A stretch of DNA of 64,000 nucleotides, taken from Flammeovirgaceae bacterium BBD 1991-12 (lineage in GTDB: Bacteria > Bacteroidota > Bacteroidia > Cytophagales > Cyclobacteriaceae). This document shows, one piece after another, positions 1 through 7,818 of this stretch (position 1 is the stretch's first letter; each line of letters starts with the position of its first letter). Made by a program: the position numbers and the translations under genes. The notes under the pieces are model-generated. The model searched no databases. It was not told where the DNA came from and saw nothing but the letters and a program-made list of their open reading frames with translations. Location of the stretch: NCBI GenBank assembly GCA_001657315.1, contig LYSV01000071.1, forward strand, positions 1 to 64,000, given 5' to 3'.

Positions 1-173
1 CAAACCACAACGCTGGTAAAGTCAGATCAACAAAATCAAAACGGCCATGGAAAGTTCACTATTCTGAAGTCCTCACCACCAAATCCGAAGCTTACCAAAG
101 GGAACTCTTCTTCAAAAGCTTCGAAGGAAGAAAGTGGCTAATTGAACAGAAAATCATTACACCTAAAGAGTAA
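1..173 (+). CDS. C-terminal fragment of a GIY-YIG nuclease family protein (gene starts before the window)
   Basis: Frame 3 reads NHNAGKVRSTKSKRPWKVHYSEVLTTKSEAYQRELFFKSFEGRKWLIEQKIITPKE*, matching the usual GIY-YIG C-terminal pattern (HN..G.T....PW.v.y.E...t..EA..RE..fK...GR.wl). Confidence 0.65.
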   Translation, partial: NHNAGKVRSTKSKRPWKVHYSEVLTTKSEAYQRELFFKSFEGRKWLIEQKIITPKE

Positions 174-309
174 CAAAATTGACTAAATGTAACGTGAGTT
201 TTGGGTTGAGACATGTATTAAAAATATATCTCAACAACAAATAAACGTCTTTGCGAGGCCTTTGAGTGGGTTTTGGTGTTGAAGCTGCTGAAACTACGCA
301 CAGGTCCAC

Positions 310-363
310 AGGACTCCGTGAGCAGGCAATCTCCTGAAACAGGGGGACTGCTCACGGAGTCCT
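310..363. repeat. Palindromic intergenic repeat: perfect 16 bp inverted repeat with 22 nt spacer
   Basis: aggactccgtgagcag (310-325) and ctgctcacggagtcct (348-363) are exact reverse complements; a related copy lies at 51140-51213. Confidence 0.85.
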
Positions 364-496
364 GCGGGCCACACCTTTTCCCACCCTCATAACGGCCGAA
401 AAGCCCGCAGTGACGATAAATAGTTGCTTTTGAGATTGTTATACACAAAACTCACGTTAAATGTATGAATCCGGTAAATAAACATTGAAATCGAAC

Positions 497-811
497 TTAT
501 TCACCCAAATCCTCCTCCACCCTCTCCCCCAACTCATCAAAACCCGGCCTCAGCATCTCCAACTGCTCAAAGAACTCACACAGCCGGGCATACATATAGG
601 CCATGTCGCTGGCTTCTATAGGGTCCGTTTTGTGGTCTTTGCCGGGATCGGTCGCCAGCATGAGCAGCTTCCACATTTGGTTTGCCAGCGCTGAAGCGCT
701 GATCCAGTCCAACTGCTGCTCTGCAAGGTTTTGGAGGAACAGTAGTTTATCCACCGACAGTAACCGGGAGATACCGGTGGTAGCCCTGCGGTTTGTGGTT
801 GGGTTACTCAT
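497..811 (-). CDS. Hypothetical small helical protein
   Basis: 104 aa ORF, overlaps the upstream ORF by 4 bp (operon-like). Confidence 0.6.
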   Translation of the reverse strand: MSNPTTNRRATTGISRLLSVDKLLFLQNLAEQQLDWISASALANQMWKLLMLATDPGKDHKTDPIEASDMAYMYARLCEFFEQLEMLRPGFDELGERVEEDLGE

Positions 812-1218
812 CGCTTCACACTTTGAATGGCGGATAATGCTATCTCCCCGATCTTCCCGAGCTGGTCCTGCGTTCCCTTCGGCATCTTGCTATAGGACAT
901 GGAGTGAATCTGCTCCAGTGCGTCCAGTAGTTTCCACAGCACCTCCGTTACTTTGTCTTCCTCCTGCTCCTCATGATCCGTGACCAGCTTATGAAGGAAG
1001 TTGTTCATCATGATCATGACCGTGGCCCGTGATGACGAGTAGTCACTCTCCTCCAGGGCCATGCAGTTCGCGCTGGTCAGCAGCTTTGTAAGGTCACGTA
1101 TGTTCTCCTCCATGTCCGTACTCTGGCTCCACTGAAAAAAGCTGGCAATGGCAATACGTCCCACATACCGCTCAAAGCCGGAACGGTCGGGGATGGGTGG
1201 TTTGTGTGTGTTTGTCAT
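808..1218 (-). CDS. Hypothetical protein
   Basis: 136 aa ORF, divergent from the XRE gene at 1336, translationally coupled to 497-811. Confidence 0.6.
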   Translation of the reverse strand: MTNTHKPPIPDRSGFERYVGRIAIASFFQWSQSTDMEENIRDLTKLLTSANCMALEESDYSSSRATVMIMMNNFLHKLVTDHEEQEEDKVTEVLWKLLDALEQIHSMSYSKMPKGTQDQLGKIGEIALSAIQSVKR

Positions 1219-1231
1219 GGTTGAAAGATGT

Positions 1232-1301
1232 GTTAGTAGTGTAATTCAATACAATAGTAGTATAATTCACACTAAACACAAAACAATAGTAGTGTTATTT
1301 A
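1232..1301. promoter_or_regulatory. Divergent promoter region with three operator-like direct repeats
   Basis: gttagtagtgtaattca (1232-1248), aatagtagtataattca (1253-1269), aatagtagtgttattta (1285-1301) between divergent genes 808-1218(-) and 1336(+). Confidence 0.55.
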
Positions 1302-1335
1302 CTACGGTTGATGTGATTTTATATATTTACGTATC

Positions 1336-1542
1336 ATGAAAGACTACAACCGTATACGTGTCGTTTTGGCGGAAAAGAAAATCTCTGTGGGAGAATTAGC
1401 TGAAATGATTGGACGACACCGAACAGTCGTTTCCAATTACGTGAACAATAAGACGCAGCCATCTATTGAATTGTTATATAAGATAGCGGAATGTCTGAAG
1501 GTAAACGTTCATGATTTATTAGAAAATCCAGATAAACTGTAG
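1336..1542 (+). CDS. Small XRE-family HTH transcriptional regulator
   Basis: MKDYNRIRVVLAEKKISVGELAEMIGRHRTVVSNYVNNKTQPSIELLYKIAECLKVNVHDLLE: Cro/C1-type HTH. Confidence 0.9.
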   Translation: MKDYNRIRVVLAEKKISVGELAEMIGRHRTVVSNYVNNKTQPSIELLYKIAECLKVNVHDLLENPDKL

Positions 1543-1548
1543 AAGTAA

Positions 1549-1568
1549 ACCACTGGGTGAGAAGTGGT
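1549..1568 (+). other. Hairpin just downstream of the XRE gene
   Basis: accact-gggtgaga-agtggt; similar hairpin after the paralogous XRE gene at 3977-3997. Confidence 0.5.
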
Positions 1569-1579
1569 GGTAACGAGTA

Positions 1580-1843
1580 ATGGGTTTGCTACAGCTACTT
1601 ACTATCTATTGTAGTATATTAGATTTTGTGAATAATCGGCATGCAGACGGTAGTAAAGTATATGTAATAGATGATCAGATTCGTGACAAAGGACCCTTTA
1701 CAATTATCGGCGATTACATTGAGGACCCGGAAACCAATGAGATTAGTTACTTGGTAAAATGCGGTGATGTAACAAGGATATATTTAGAAAGCCAGTTAGT
1801 CACTCAAAACCAAATGATTCTAATGAGATCAGGGAAAGATTGA
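1580..1843 (+). CDS. Hypothetical protein
   Basis: 87 aa ORF (YVIDDQIRDKGPFTIIGDYIEDPETNEISYLVKCGD...); start uncertain. Confidence 0.5.
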   Translation: MGLLQLLTIYCSILDFVNNRHADGSKVYVIDDQIRDKGPFTIIGDYIEDPETNEISYLVKCGDVTRIYLESQLVTQNQMILMRSGKD

Positions 1844-2041
1844 AACACCTTCAAAATGTTCCCGCAGGAGAAGTTAATTAACCGCCTTCAGAACCAACCA
1901 GAACTTTCACATTAAAATACCGAGGGTTGGGTATTGATTACCAAATTTTTCATAGCGTAAATTCATTTAATTAGCAACTCTGACATGAGCACGCTGAAGA
2001 ACATTTGTTTAAGTAGTTACAATTTATAACTTTGGTTTTAT

Positions 2042-2776
2042 ATGGAAGAGACAAAAAAATTCAAAAACCCACCATTGATTGAATCTGTTTTTGAGTTGTT
2101 TTTTCAGTCCAGTGATTGGAATCCTGCCATCCCTGGCATTTATTATTCTAAAGTAAATTCCACTTATCCAATAATAACTCAATCCACTGGTGGACTAGGA
2201 ATAGCTCTAGGTCCGCAAGGAGTACAAATTGGCTCTGGGCATAACCAGTTAACTCAATTTAAAAGTTCTGATAACTCTTCAATCATTCAACTATCAAATA
2301 ATCTTTTAACAGTTAATAAGTTGCCTAAGTATAATGGGTGGAAATCCTACAAGAAAATGATTCTTGATGCTGTTGATAATTTAAGTGAAACTCTCGATGT
2401 ACAGGCAATAAACAGGATTGGCCTCCGGGCTGTCAATAAAATTGATGTCAAAGCCCATGATCTGGTGAATTTCAAAGAGAGTTTCAATGTTTATCCAAAA
2501 ATACCAGAAGGAGTTGCAAATGATTTTAACTCTTTGCAGCTTAATTATGAAACACCGTTTCCCAATAATGAGGTACTAGCAATCAAATTTACCACAGTGC
2601 GAAAAGAACAAGGCTATAACGCTCCAGTAATATTTACGTTACATTATGCTAAATTGAGTTCCTTGGAAATGAATTCGATTGAAAAATGGCTAGATAAGGC
2701 ACATATGAAACTTCACTCTGCGTTTAATAGTATTATAACTACGGGTAAGAAAAAAGAGTTTGACAATGAGCAATAG
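2042..2776 (+). CDS. TIGR04255-like family protein
   Basis: 244 aa; N-terminal FKNPPLIESVFELFFQS matches the characteristic start of the family; first gene of an overlapping operon. Confidence 0.65.
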   Translation: MEETKKFKNPPLIESVFELFFQSSDWNPAIPGIYYSKVNSTYPIITQSTGGLGIALGPQGVQIGSGHNQLTQFKSSDNSSIIQLSNNLLTVNKLPKYNGWKSYKKMILDAVDNLSETLDVQAINRIGLRAVNKIDVKAHDLVNFKESFNVYPKIPEGVANDFNSLQLNYETPFPNNEVLAIKFTTVRKEQGYNAPVIFTLHYAKLSSLEMNSIEKWLDKAHMKLHSAFNSIITTGKKKEFDNEQ

Positions 2777-3245
2777 TATATATCTTAACCAAATCCAAAA
2801 TTCATCATTAATTGATGATTACTATTCTGATGAAGAAACTATTAATTCCAATACTGAATTTCCTTTGTCGGTTCTTGATGAGGGATATCTCTTATCCATT
2901 GAGTTAAAAAGAGAGAAGGCCAAAAAAGAACTTGAACACTCATTCCACTTTACTACTATTAATAAAGAAGTAGATTTCATTTCTTCCGATCAAGATCTGC
3001 ACAATCTTCTGCCAAGCATTGGAGAATTTTTTCTAAAAGAAGTCTCAAATAACTCAAAATTAACACTGGAGTTGATGGAAGAGGAGAATAACTGGAGGAC
3101 TCTTTTCATAAACGTTCCGATTGACCGGCAGTCTGATTGGAAGAGCATAAACAAAATAGTTGATTCATTCTATGATACCATGTTTGATACATATCCGTCA
3201 GTTATGGAGAAACTAAACATTGATTTGGTTTCATATGAGTTTTGA
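2766..3245 (+). CDS. Hypothetical acidic protein, middle gene of TIGR04255/HEPN operon
   Basis: ATG at 2766 overlaps the previous stop (2774-2776) by 11 bp; alternative TTG start at 2760. Confidence 0.7.
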   Translation: MSNSIYLNQIQNSSLIDDYYSDEETINSNTEFPLSVLDEGYLLSIELKREKAKKELEHSFHFTTINKEVDFISSDQDLHNLLPSIGEFFLKEVSNNSKLTLELMEEENNWRTLFINVPIDRQSDWKSINKIVDSFYDTMFDTYPSVMEKLNIDLVSYEF

Positions 3246-3582
3246 TCCACAAAAATTCATTGATATATCAAAAGAACTTCAATTAAGTGCAACAACTGAG
3301 GCGCATTACAGATCAATTATCAATCGTGCTTATTACGGAGCTTTTGGTCATATAAGAAATAATCTAGGATTGTATGTCACTAAATCCAGTGTGCACCGGG
3401 CAGTAATTGATGCGCTTATAGCGTCTACTGACCTTTCAAAAAAGAAGGCCGGAAAATTACTTGAAACACTTTTCAAAAGAAGAAAACAAGCAGACTATGA
3501 GCATCGAACAGAGATCAGGGCGCACAACTGCGAACATTGCATTAATCAAGCTGAAGAAATTATAAAGTTGTTTGATTCCTGA
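3235..3582 (+). CDS. HEPN-domain-like protein (UPF0332-type)
   Basis: MSFDPQKFIDISKEL...AHYRSIINRAYYGAFGHIRNNL...RRKQADYEH...INQAEEIIKLF: RAYYgaF and R..ADY features; ATG at 3235 overlaps the upstream stop by 11 bp. Confidence 0.7.
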   Translation: MSFDPQKFIDISKELQLSATTEAHYRSIINRAYYGAFGHIRNNLGLYVTKSSVHRAVIDALIASTDLSKKKAGKLLETLFKRRKQADYEHRTEIRAHNCEHCINQAEEIIKLFDS

Positions 3583-3754
3583 TAGTTTTACTAATCCTAC
3601 AACATATCTAACTCAATCAGCAAATACTAATTTTAATCGCTTCTAAGCCCTTAAATTACTGCCGGGTTTCATTATCCTGTGGCGTGATCGTTCGCGGGAG
3701 AGACTTATCTGGGCCTGTAGGGGGTGGTAAGGGAAGTTTCCTCATATTAGTATA

Positions 3755-3946
3755 ATGAAATACAATCGAATCAAAGTAGTTCTGGCGGAAAAGGATGTTT
3801 CAGTCAGCGAACTAGCCGGGATGATAGGCCGGTCAAGGCCCATAGTATCTAACTATGTAAACAATAAGACACAGCCTTCGATTGAGTTACTATTTCAAAT
3901 TGCAAAGGCACTTGAAGTACCGGTGTGTAGCCTGTTAAATACATAA
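3755..3946 (+). CDS. Small XRE-family HTH regulator, paralog of 1336-1542
   Basis: MKYNRIKVVLAEKDVSVSELAGMIGRSRPIVSNYVNNKTQPSIELLFQIAKALEVPVCSLL. Confidence 0.9.
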   Translation: MKYNRIKVVLAEKDVSVSELAGMIGRSRPIVSNYVNNKTQPSIELLFQIAKALEVPVCSLLNT

Positions 3947-3976
3947 GTACCTCCCTGCGATCTGCCGGCCGATCCG

Positions 3977-3997
3977 CCACCGGGTAAGAAATGGTGG
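3977..3997 (+). other. Hairpin downstream of second XRE gene
   Basis: ccacc-gggtaagaaat-ggtgg; matches the position and sequence type of 1549-1568. Confidence 0.45.
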
Positions 3998-4283
3998 TAA
4001 AAGATATCCCAACAACACCGGTTTCCTAAATGAGATTGTCACTAAGACGAATGCCTGTTGTATAAACATTCTCCATAAGGATTTACTTAAGCACATCGTA
4101 TTCATTAGCTCTTTTAAGGCAGTTACCCCAAAGAATAAAACACACCCTCCTGGGATAAACAGAAGAAAAATCTAGTTTTGTGATCGCCTGAGATACAGGA
4201 GGTGAAATTAGAATTACACTTCCATCAGACTTTATTACGATCACCGACGTTGATAAACCTAAAACATACACCCACACACCAAT

Positions 4284-5207
4284 ATGGTAGTTTTCGAAAG
4301 TATTTCTCTCCCCGTTATTCTAAAATTCAATGGAAAAAGTATTCTCATTCTTGCCGGAATGGCCGGTATGACATGGTTAACCAGTATTTTCATAAAAGTG
4401 CAGGAACCAACAACCTTGCTCCCCTCTACAGCCGTTTTTGGTACGATCATGTCTTTGTTCCTGGCTTTCAAAACCAATGAGGCCTATAACAGATGGTGGG
4501 AAGCGCGAAAAATGTGGGGACAATTGGTCAACTCCAGCCGTACTTTTGCCCGGCAGGTGTTAAACCTGATCACCCTCCACCCTGATCAAAACATACATGA
4601 TCAGGATGAACTGAAGAATATCCAAAAAGAGCTGATCTACCGGCATATAGGGTATATAAATGCGCTCCGTCTGTCACTGAGAAGGGAGCGCAGCTGGCAG
4701 GAGCTGGACCCATTTGTTAATAAAAAGGAATTATCAGAAATTTCCGCACAAACAAATTTACCCACTCAGCTGATCCTGAAACAGGCTGAGCAACTGAAAA
4801 GCATTTTCAATGCCGGAGCTGAAAATGATTACCGCTACATGCAAATGGATCATACACTGAATGAATTCTACAATATCCAGGGAGCATGCGAACGGATCAA
4901 GAATACTGTATTTCCCAGGATCTATTCACTTTATACCACGTCATTCACCTGGCTGTTTGTTTTCATCCTCATATTCAGTCTTTTTGATGAATTTGATTGG
5001 CAAATACTTACGGTCAGGACTTTGGTGGGATATGTCTTTGTCAGCCTTGAAAAAATCAGCCGGTTTTTGAAGGACCCATTTGAAAACCGGATCTCTGATA
5101 CCCCCATGTCTGCCCTTTGCCGGACTATTGAGATCGATCTCAGGGAAATGTTGGGAGAGAGAGATATACCTGCTCCCGTCAGGCCGGTGAATGGTGTTTT
5201 ATATTGA
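4284..5207 (+). CDS. Bestrophin-family (UPF0187) ion channel protein
   Basis: LPSTAVFGTIMSLFLAFKTNEAYNRWWEARKMWGQLVNSSRTFARQV, typical bestrophin core. Confidence 0.9.
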   Translation: MVVFESISLPVILKFNGKSILILAGMAGMTWLTSIFIKVQEPTTLLPSTAVFGTIMSLFLAFKTNEAYNRWWEARKMWGQLVNSSRTFARQVLNLITLHPDQNIHDQDELKNIQKELIYRHIGYINALRLSLRRERSWQELDPFVNKKELSEISAQTNLPTQLILKQAEQLKSIFNAGAENDYRYMQMDHTLNEFYNIQGACERIKNTVFPRIYSLYTTSFTWLFVFILIFSLFDEFDWQILTVRTLVGYVFVSLEKISRFLKDPFENRISDTPMSALCRTIEIDLREMLGERDIPAPVRPVNGVLY

Positions 5208-5400
5208 ATTATTTAGTCTCCGGGAAGAGGAGAATCCCCCGCTTCTTCTTTTTTATATACCAGGTTTCACACCCATCTGTTATCTCCCGAACTGCCTTGT
5301 TTGACGGTTTATATCAAAGAACATCCTCGCAATCACAAACTTTTATTTCTACTTTTTCGCTTCGGGTTACCTGACGGGATCGGGAATTCTCGTTTGGTAG

Positions 5401-5431
5401 AAAGCAGGGTTTAGGTTATCCTGCTTTTTTT
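5401..5431 (+). terminator. Intrinsic terminator
   Basis: aaagcagg-gtttaggttat-cctgcttttttt: perfect stem followed by a T-tract. Confidence 0.8.
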
Positions 5432-5577
5432 GCATAAAAGAACAGAGATAAGAGGGTTCGACGCTTCCCTATGGGCCGACCCATAGGATTGACCATGGCA
5501 ATGATTACATCAGCCTACTATGGCATCTGTATCCCACGTTGAACAAAAAATTACCAGGTTAGCAGGGCATGGATGAC

Positions 5578-6684
5578 CTACTCAATAACCGAATTTATCA
5601 CTTCTACAGGAGTATCGTCATGCATGGAAATGGCCGGGTAAACCGGATACCAGGTCCCTCCGATGTTGTTTCTGATCACCGAATCATGGATCCTGATGTT
5701 TCCTGTATGGTCATTTGAGACGAAAAACAGGGCTGAACCATGCGCATTCACCTCATTGGATTCAAATTTTGAACCAAAAATGGTCAGCGTCATAGTATTG
5801 CCATCGTTGTAAATGGCCCCGCCGCTTCCACCTCCCGGAGTATTGTCCTGAGCAGGGTTACCCCCATTCCCAATGGCCCGGTTGTGCGTAAAAAGGCTGT
5901 TGATGACCGTCCACGAAACACCAATGCTACTCAGCGCACCTCCGTTGGAACCTACATTTCCATACCCTTCAGCACCGCCAAATGTACTGTTGACCACATA
6001 CACGGGCTGGTTGTTGTATTGGCTGAATACGCGTACCGCTCCACCGCCTACGTCGGGACCTGTGCTGGCGCAGACATTGTTAAAAAAGCGGCAATTGACA
6101 ATCTTAAACCTCCCGCCACGTACCCAAATGGCTCCACCGCCATCATATTCGGATTCAGCCGTTGAATTGCCATCAGCAAAAGTCAGGTTCTGAACTATTA
6201 GCCGTGGATGGTCCTGATTCTGACAGTGCGGGGTAGTCCAGTTTTGAGCCTGATCACAGGTATTCATGTACAGGATCCGGGTTTTGCCGTCACCGCTAAG
6301 GGTAATAAGTCCGCCGCCATCTATGACCACTACCGGGTTGGCATCGTTGAATACCTTAGCCGGCCGGTCCATGCGGATCACTACCGGGTCCGGACCGCAA
6401 TCAAAAGCGATTTTCCCACCCTGAGCAACGGCATTCACAAAAGCATCACAGGTACAGCTTTCAGGGGTACCATCACCCACCACCTGATCAGGGGAAGACA
6501 TATCTTCGGGGCCAGCTTCCGCGGGAATAGCGTAGTTACCATCAGGATTGCCCGCCGGCGGGCCGGAGACAGGATCTTCCAGTGGATTGTGAATTTTTAA
6601 CGAAGGTTCTGCGTCATCATCACCACAACTCCAAACCGACAATAACAAGACAATACATGGTACATATTTTTTCAAACCATTCAT
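5578..6684 (-). CDS. Lipoprotein with predicted right-handed parallel beta-helix repeats
   Basis: Signal/lipobox LLLSVWSCGDDD; repeated I.NCRFFNN, VVNSTF, VINSLFTHN motifs typical of beta-helix proteins. Confidence 0.75.
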   Translation of the reverse strand: MNGLKKYVPCIVLLLSVWSCGDDDAEPSLKIHNPLEDPVSGPPAGNPDGNYAIPAEAGPEDMSSPDQVVGDGTPESCTCDAFVNAVAQGGKIAFDCGPDPVVIRMDRPAKVFNDANPVVVIDGGGLITLSGDGKTRILYMNTCDQAQNWTTPHCQNQDHPRLIVQNLTFADGNSTAESEYDGGGAIWVRGGRFKIVNCRFFNNVCASTGPDVGGGAVRVFSQYNNQPVYVVNSTFGGAEGYGNVGSNGGALSSIGVSWTVINSLFTHNRAIGNGGNPAQDNTPGGGSGGAIYNDGNTMTLTIFGSKFESNEVNAHGSALFFVSNDHTGNIRIHDSVIRNNIGGTWYPVYPAISMHDDTPVEVINSVIE

Positions 6685-6993
6685 GGCTATTTTCTTTCAG
6701 TTGATTATTTCGGGCTACATGTTACCAGCAAACTTTCAAAAGATCCTTATGATGCAGGCTGTTGTTGAAATTGCAAGCCAAAGATGAATCCAATACGATT
6801 TACCTGGTGCAGCTTTTATTTTATACCTCTGATGTAAGCCCGGTAACACCCAATACCACAAAAAGGGACTGTTACTTCGGCATTTTAAATACACTCTTTA
6901 TGATCCGTTCCAATGAGAAGATCGATATGAAGAGAGACGATGTCCGGCTCCGGTATAAATAAAAAGTATTAAATTCATTGCTTTAAACTGCCT

Positions 6994-7818
6994 ATGAAGA
7001 TCATTCCTCTACATCCTTCCAGTGTCCTGAGCCCTTTGATCTGGCAAATGTGGATCATTGAGGAAGAGGCCGGCACCAATATTGATATCACATCTTTTCC
7101 CACCGGTTATCCTTATATCAATGTGGTGAGTGGCAACCCCTTCGTAATAAAAAACGGACAAAAAGACCCGATAGAGGTCAGAAGCTACCTGGCCGGGCAA
7201 GTACTTAACCCTTTTGTGCTATCCATGAAGCTGATCAGGCGGGCGTTGATCATACGGCTACAGCCGTATGCCGTACCCTTTCTGTTCCACCGGCCTGCGG
7301 CAGATATGGCCGGGGACATAATCCCACTGGATGCTATAGACCGATGGCTGGCCTGTGAGCTCGAAGATCTGATGAACAGTGAATTGACCAGTCAGGAAGT
7401 ACTGTTAAGAACGGAAGAAATATTTGGGCGTCGATTGAAGGAAGACAATTATGACCAGCGGCTACTCCATAGTCTCAGGTACATACTGGACAGGGGTGGT
7501 GACGTGGATATGCGTAGCATGGCGGAAGAGTCCAATCTGTCACAACGAAGAATACAGCAACTCTACAGACATTACCTGGGCTTAACGGCCAAGGCCTTCA
7601 GCCGGGTAGTGAAGGTACAAAACTACACCCTCAAGATACTCAATGGCAAATCCATGGAGCAGGTCATTCCGGAAAGTTACCATGATCAGGCTCATTTTAT
7701 CCATGATCTCAAGGGATTGACTCACATGACCCCAACAGAATATTTCCGTTATATCACTGATCCTGCACGAAGGGACGCCTACCGCATGTCCAACCTTTAT
7801 AATGTGCATCGGTATTGA
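6994..7818 (+). CDS. AraC-family transcriptional regulator
   Basis: C-terminal MRSMAEESNLSQRRIQQLYRHYLGLTAKAFSRVVKVQ...YHDQAHFIHDLKGLTHMTPTEYF. Confidence 0.88.
   Translation: MKIIPLHPSSVLSPLIWQMWIIEEEAGTNIDITSFPTGYPYINVVSGNPFVIKNGQKDPIEVRSYLAGQVLNPFVLSMKLIRRALIIRLQPYAVPFLFHRPAADMAGDIIPLDAIDRWLACELEDLMNSELTSQEVLLRTEEIFGRRLKEDNYDQRLLHSLRYILDRGGDVDMRSMAEESNLSQRRIQQLYRHYLGLTAKAFSRVVKVQNYTLKILNGKSMEQVIPESYHDQAHFIHDLKGLTHMTPTEYFRYITDPARRDAYRMSNLYNVHRY

Follow-up and report, generated by a model that had tools for sequence, protein, structure and literature searches.

In a modular family of three-gene operons, TIGR04255 stays constant and the other two genes are exchanged; the partners include HEPN, PemK/MazF, and four or more unnamed families. 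The HEPN-bearing version described here—TIGR04255, an acidic middle protein, and a HEPN protein, together the trio—is a conserved, mobile, modular unit that looks like a new layout of a toxin–antitoxin or anti-phage system, and it is likely a toxin–antitoxin-like defense system with HEPN as its effector. It lies in the window, the 64-kb stretch of DNA analyzed here, which is the start of contig C54 in an 8.6-Mb Bacteroidota genome (Table 1).

Table 1. Features of the trio and its flanks (window coordinates)
Feature	Position	Strand	Remarks
Small XRE regulator 1	1336..1542	+	Neighbor, probably outside the system
Bacteroidota-type promoter, TTTG-N19-TAACTTTG	2004..2034	+	Putative; ends 8 nt before the first ATG
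TIGR04255 protein	2042..2776	+	244 aa; shared by all operons of the modular family; fold predicted as duplicated helix-grip/TBP-like
Acidic middle protein	2766..3245	+	159 aa; disordered N-terminus (1–34) and folded C-terminal domain pairing with HEPN; proposed antitoxin
HEPN protein	3235..3582	+	115 aa; HEPN-T/UPF0332 type, lacking canonical Rx4-6H; proposed RNase effector
Y33-Y34 codons	3331..3336	+	Invariant in 19/19; align with Y40-42 stretch of retron-Kva2 HEPN (PMC13405049)
H54 codon	3394..3396	+	Proposed catalytic His; invariant in 19/19; aligned to Kva2 H64
R83-x3-D87-Y88 codons	3481..3498	+	Invariant in 19/19; R83 is the proposed H54 partner (Kva2 R122 by analogy)
Small XRE regulator 2	3755..3946	+	Neighbor, probably outside the system

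The first-pass annotation, made from the letters alone, had described three open reading frames joined by two 11-bp overlaps, and both overlaps (2766–2776 and 3235–3245) are indeed of exactly that length. Cotranslation, which it considered likely, is supported. The third gene overlaps its neighbor by 11 bp in trios L063, L066, L035, and L070 as well; the figure is no rule, because across trios neighboring genes may lie up to 5 bp apart or overlap by up to 29 bp. The family assignments also stand: the first protein matches TIGR04255 over its full length (8.8e-32; 110.9 bits against a curated cutoff of 30; profile positions 1–245 of 252), the second is acidic (pI 4.3) and matched nothing in family profile searches, and the third is a marginal PF05168 match (23.5 bits against a gathering threshold of 22) whose family profile matches the solved HEPN structures 9xbd, 2hsb, and 36ht (3.5e-11).

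Upstream of the first gene lies the sole exact match in the window to the promoter pattern, with 1.05 expected. Sister locus L066 carries TTTG-N19-TATCTTTG, also 8 nt before the ATG, in surrounding sequence that is otherwise different. Position and conservation in L066 make the promoter credible even though about one chance match per window is expected, and its distance from the ATG would imply a short or leaderless transcript. The remaining sequence on this side of the trio holds a possible 87-aa frame between the first XRE gene and the trio (1580–1843), two overlapping small frames of 136 and 104 aa divergent from that XRE gene (497–1218, minus strand)—none of them with a family match—and, close to the contig end, a long inverted repeat around actccgtgagcag...ctgctcacggagt (298–385) that resembles a terminator or repeat element.

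Conserved co-occurrence of the three genes, proposed earlier as a check on the operon, was found: the same gene order, closely spaced and with differing flanks, recurs at 11 loci from Cytophagales to Kapaibacteria plus a Thermus plasmid, which argues that the arrangement is not due to chance. A search of the HEPN protein against 99 relatives gave four clear matches outside the window (L061, L062, L063, and L064), all in this order; at L064:4829-5549, TIGR04255 is split across two frames while the middle and HEPN genes are intact. Further trios occur in Candidatus Kapaibacterium (L069), a Bacteroidetes bin (L070), G003 (L035), a Thermus plasmid (L079), and G797 (L090). When the HEPN profile was later searched in 297 genomes of the family, five new matches appeared, two strong and three weak. 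One strong match is a full trio (L147); the other is a decayed one (L146:2366-3097) with HEPN intact, the middle gene reduced to a remnant, and TIGR04255 gone. In the three weak matches (L148–L150), HEPN is paired with a nucleotidyltransferase. Within the family, trios sit beside RecQ and single-strand-binding genes, a dnaX-like gene, an exonuclease, or a bestrophin-like gene (all named by eye), and these unrelated surroundings identify the trio itself as the mobile unit.

The two XRE genes do not travel with it. They are paralogous, as originally reported (70% protein identity over 61 residues), and closer to one another than to five other such genes found in the genome (38–47%). Their DNA identity is only 70% over 143 bp, so they are not a recent target duplication flanking a mobile insert. 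Their suggested role as regulators of the trio fails on distribution: an XRE gene lies near only 2 of the 10 HEPN trios examined (the window and the Chryseotalea trio L063) and near none of 49 other TIGR04255 loci. A single regulated cassette of XRE pair and trio, as first proposed, would account for the flanking pair here and for the one XRE gene adjoining the Chryseotalea trio; we consider it very improbable, since the trio carries its own candidate promoter, and that promoter is shared with L066, a locus with no XRE gene. The XRE genes are probably neighbors rather than components.

Exchange of the partners is seen across TIGR04255 as a whole. We classed 54 TIGR04255 loci by their third gene and built a tree of the 54 TIGR04255 proteins. 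The third gene encodes HEPN in 9, SNTCD in 14, NYSH in 11, GWP in 4, PemK in 3, ITRAKW in 3, and other proteins in 10; SNTCD, NYSH, GWP, and ITRAKW are labels coined here from conserved letters, and assignment to NYSH or GWP is weak in some cases. PemK in this slot is Pfam-confirmed (1.8e-12). Along the tree, third-gene type switches 16 times; at least 6 switches are required, and shuffled data give 34. The tests reject a one-time origin for the SNTCD partner (p-AU 9.6e-5) but not for the HEPN partner (P = 0.15). Comparison across classes showed no relationship among middle proteins or among third proteins, apart from the related NYSH and GWP middles, and the two genes therefore appear to be exchanged as pairs. 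The PanA hyperpromiscuous toxin–antitoxin network (PMC10440598) reportedly also joins many interchangeable toxins to a single invariant component; there, however, the constant part is said to be the antitoxin domain, whereas in the TIGR04255 family middle and third genes change together and TIGR04255 stays.

The genome studied carries two further TIGR04255 operons, both with SNTCD as third protein (L039, G000:C37:484-1176; L054, G000:C266:1553-2275). Each of its three TIGR04255 operons is no more than ~2 kb from a contig end, and on C266 what looks by eye like a transposase fragment lies close by; repeats thus probably broke the assembly. HEPN-type TIGR04255 was absent from the phage records and viral contigs searched. 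Viral contigs hold a few TIGR04255 genes of other types: a full GWP-type trio (L118:748-2392), an operon with a NYSH-like third gene (by eye; L119:2871-4512), and a TIGR04255 gene close to where the sequence examined stops (L120:3860-4720).

The constant protein is predicted to consist of two beta-alpha-beta3-alpha units. Its AF2 model (pLDDT 85) has 26 PDB matches at E ≤ 1e-3, the first an AdoMetDC prozyme and nearly all others TBP chains. Foldseek aligns the model to TBP with a probability of ~1.0 and E of 1e-4 to 1e-3, but with a TM score of 0.3–0.4 and an rmsd near 10 Å, so that only the topology is alike; the resemblance to TBP and TBP-domain proteins is one of fold and implies no role in transcription. 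By sequence, TIGR04255 had no significant PDB match and no detectable internal repeat. The P0002 structure had no significant match in the PDB. None of 25 TIGR04255 members matched a PADLOC model, and the open-access literature searched yielded no mention of the family.

Could TIGR04255 itself be the effector? It might act, for example, by binding nucleic acid through its TBP-like fold, with the exchangeable pair as a variable sensor or adaptor. Every component except TIGR04255 is swapped, a pattern that phage-driven diversification of sensors would produce, and the TIGR04255 model does resemble DNA-binding TBP. Such a reversal of roles is nonetheless unlikely: the third slot is occupied by two known toxin families, HEPN and PemK/MazF, the putative HEPN active site is intact, and among 25 TIGR04255 sequences only W100 and F228 are invariant, with no catalytic residue pattern apparent. 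We instead favor HEPN as effector and hypothesize that TIGR04255 serves as a sensor or chaperone.

The middle protein has features that suggest an antitoxin with an added tail. Its AF2 model (pLDDT 78) falls below 50 over residues 1–34, and its pI of 4.3 stands against 9.1 for HEPN; tail and charge contrast together prompt this reading. A profile model built from the middle proteins of other trios scores the window's protein at 112 bits and two proteins encoded before HEPN on cyanobacterial plasmids at 47–50 bits, the latter matching the C-terminal part only. That domain is preceded by 53–82 residues in trios against 14–16 in the TIGR04255-less homologues, which are only two in number and closely related. 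These Gloeothece plasmid loci (L080:3648-4375 and L081:3642-4390) carry the middle C-terminal domain and HEPN without TIGR04255, and possibly represent a minimal toxin–antitoxin pair. Across 396 genomes of the phylum, the sole strong match to the middle-protein profile was the window's own copy; this search was not exhaustive, because it missed the L035 type.

The use of one unvarying component alongside a range of toxin–antitoxin pairs recalls the toxin–antitoxin–chaperone systems. Antitoxins of these systems become chaperone-dependent through an extra tail (ChAD) that is transferable from one system to another (PMC5105189), and in the anti-phage system CmdTAC the toxin is released when the chaperone is lost during phage infection (PMC11618068). 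Like the SecB-linked and CmdTAC systems, the trio has three genes, and the long N-terminal extension of its middle protein may parallel the ChAD extension, which antitoxins carry only where the chaperone is present. The likeness is a functional analogy only: the trio's extension is N-terminal, its middle proteins match no known antitoxin family, and TIGR04255, which matches only its own family, was linked to SecB by neither sequence nor fold search, SecB being absent from the 50 best structural matches of its model, and showed no homology to other chaperones.

The active site of the HEPN protein differs from the one first suggested. The three R-x(4-6)-H motifs pointed out earlier (RKQADYEH, RTEIRAH, and RAHNCEH) are present in the sequence, but none is conserved among 19 HEPN proteins, which rules out the canonical Rx4-6H motif. 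Invariant in all 19, phage and cyanobacterial plasmid proteins included, are R26, R31, Y33, Y34, H54, L76, R83, D87, and Y88. This pattern is that of the HEPN-T group of AF0298, in which the Arg is kept, Asp replaces His in several cases, and a second conserved upstream His may form an alternative site (Anantharaman et al. 2013, PMC3710099): here R83 is kept, D87 stands in place of His, and H54 is the second conserved His upstream.

The same residues resemble a non-canonical site reported in a 2026 preprint for the HEPN protein of retron-Kva2. According to that preprint, the protein lacks the canonical motif; H64, R122, and Y40-42 come together at its dimer interface, and the conserved H64/R122 site is essential for T5 defense (PMC13405049). 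Our family profile aligns with the Kva2 protein across the Tyr stretch and H64; R122 falls outside the aligned part, so R83 corresponds to it by analogy only. Type IX retrons of the Kva2 kind share with the trio a site of His, Arg, and a Tyr stretch, and in them HEPN is held in a complex, whereas the trio has no reverse transcriptase or winged-helix partner and window positions 1–7000, searched for a noncoding RNA, had no Rfam match.

HEPN-MNT (type VII) toxin–antitoxin pairs and PDC-M05 use the same HEPN-T/UPF0332 type with R-x3-DY, and the three weak family matches above are such pairs; outside trios, relatives of this HEPN pair with MNT, a known HEPN antitoxin type. The trio has an acidic middle protein and TIGR04255 instead, and family searches found no nucleotidyltransferase among its proteins. 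In phage and prophage, two-gene units (L071–L078, viral contigs; e.g., L071:4102-5342) encode a ~270-aa protein followed by a usually overlapping HEPN of the same subfamily (phrog_5176); the ~270-aa partners are unnamed and unrelated to the middle protein.

Kinship with MNT pairs also raises the prospect that this HEPN is non-catalytic and that the trio, in the manner of domesticated MNT-HEPN proteins, assembles into a complex for regulation or nucleotide binding. Among the close relatives in HEPN-T are class II MNT-HEPN pairs, which are considered to be without the canonical RNase motif (PMC11586414); Rx4-6H is absent here too, and the L146 HEPN is intact without partners. Set against this are the invariance of H54, R83, and Y33-Y34 over 19 divergent sequences, the match of the conserved site to one reported necessary for retron-Kva2 defense, a sporadic mobile distribution, and PemK in the same slot, and we judge a non-catalytic HEPN to be improbable.

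The toxin or defense setting anticipated by the first-pass annotation gains from PemK in the third slot of other TIGR04255 operons and from defense genes adjoining two HEPN trios. At L035, BREX genes directly precede the trio (BrxHI-PglZ-BrxA-TIGR04255-middle-HEPN); at L147, the order is type IIG R-M-TIGR04255-middle-HEPN-HEC-01A-HEC-01B. A PemK-type operon (L036) lies between DUF499 and type I restriction genes. Strong defense matches (<1e-60) occurred in 2 of 20 TIGR04255 regions against 0 of 20 same-contig controls, an enrichment that is not significant alone and is suggestive only. Most TIGR04255 loci lie outside obvious defense islands, and this includes the window, whose surroundings look like housekeeping genes (by eye).

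By analogy with toxin–antitoxin–chaperone systems, we infer a tripartite toxin–antitoxin or abortive-infection module in which a TIGR04255-controlled acidic antitoxin holds a HEPN RNase, a model to which we give about an even chance. HEPN would act as a dimer that cleaves RNA, possibly tRNA by analogy, through the non-canonical H54/R83 site with Y33-Y34. Synthesized immediately ahead of HEPN by coupled translation, the acidic middle protein would use its C-terminal domain to bind and inhibit HEPN. In the role of sensor or chaperone, TIGR04255 would dock on the variable extension at the N-terminus of the middle protein and so make this inhibition conditional; infection or stress that titrates or alters TIGR04255 would then cause the antitoxin to fail, and the HEPN RNase would stop growth, providing phage defense. 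Other TIGR04255 operons would plug in other middle–effector pairs, including PemK/MazF. The intact HEPN beside decayed partners in L146 is hard to reconcile with a strongly expressed toxin. Also weighing against the model are the marginal Pfam score and missing canonical motif of HEPN, the lack of chaperone homology in TIGR04255, and the location of most TIGR04255 loci outside obvious defense islands.

For the family as a whole, we tentatively propose, at a little below even chance, that TIGR04255 marks an unrecognized class of defense or toxin–antitoxin systems, in which a bacterial protein of duplicated TBP-like fold serves as universal gatekeeper or sensor for exchangeable antitoxin–effector pairs, whose effectors would be HEPN, PemK, or members of four or more undescribed families of small proteins. 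The trio provides a second, independent setting for the non-canonical HEPN active site reported in a retron in 2026. If TIGR04255 is indeed a common control module, several undescribed small protein families would gain a testable function, and the third genes of TIGR04255 operons would offer a handle for finding new toxins.
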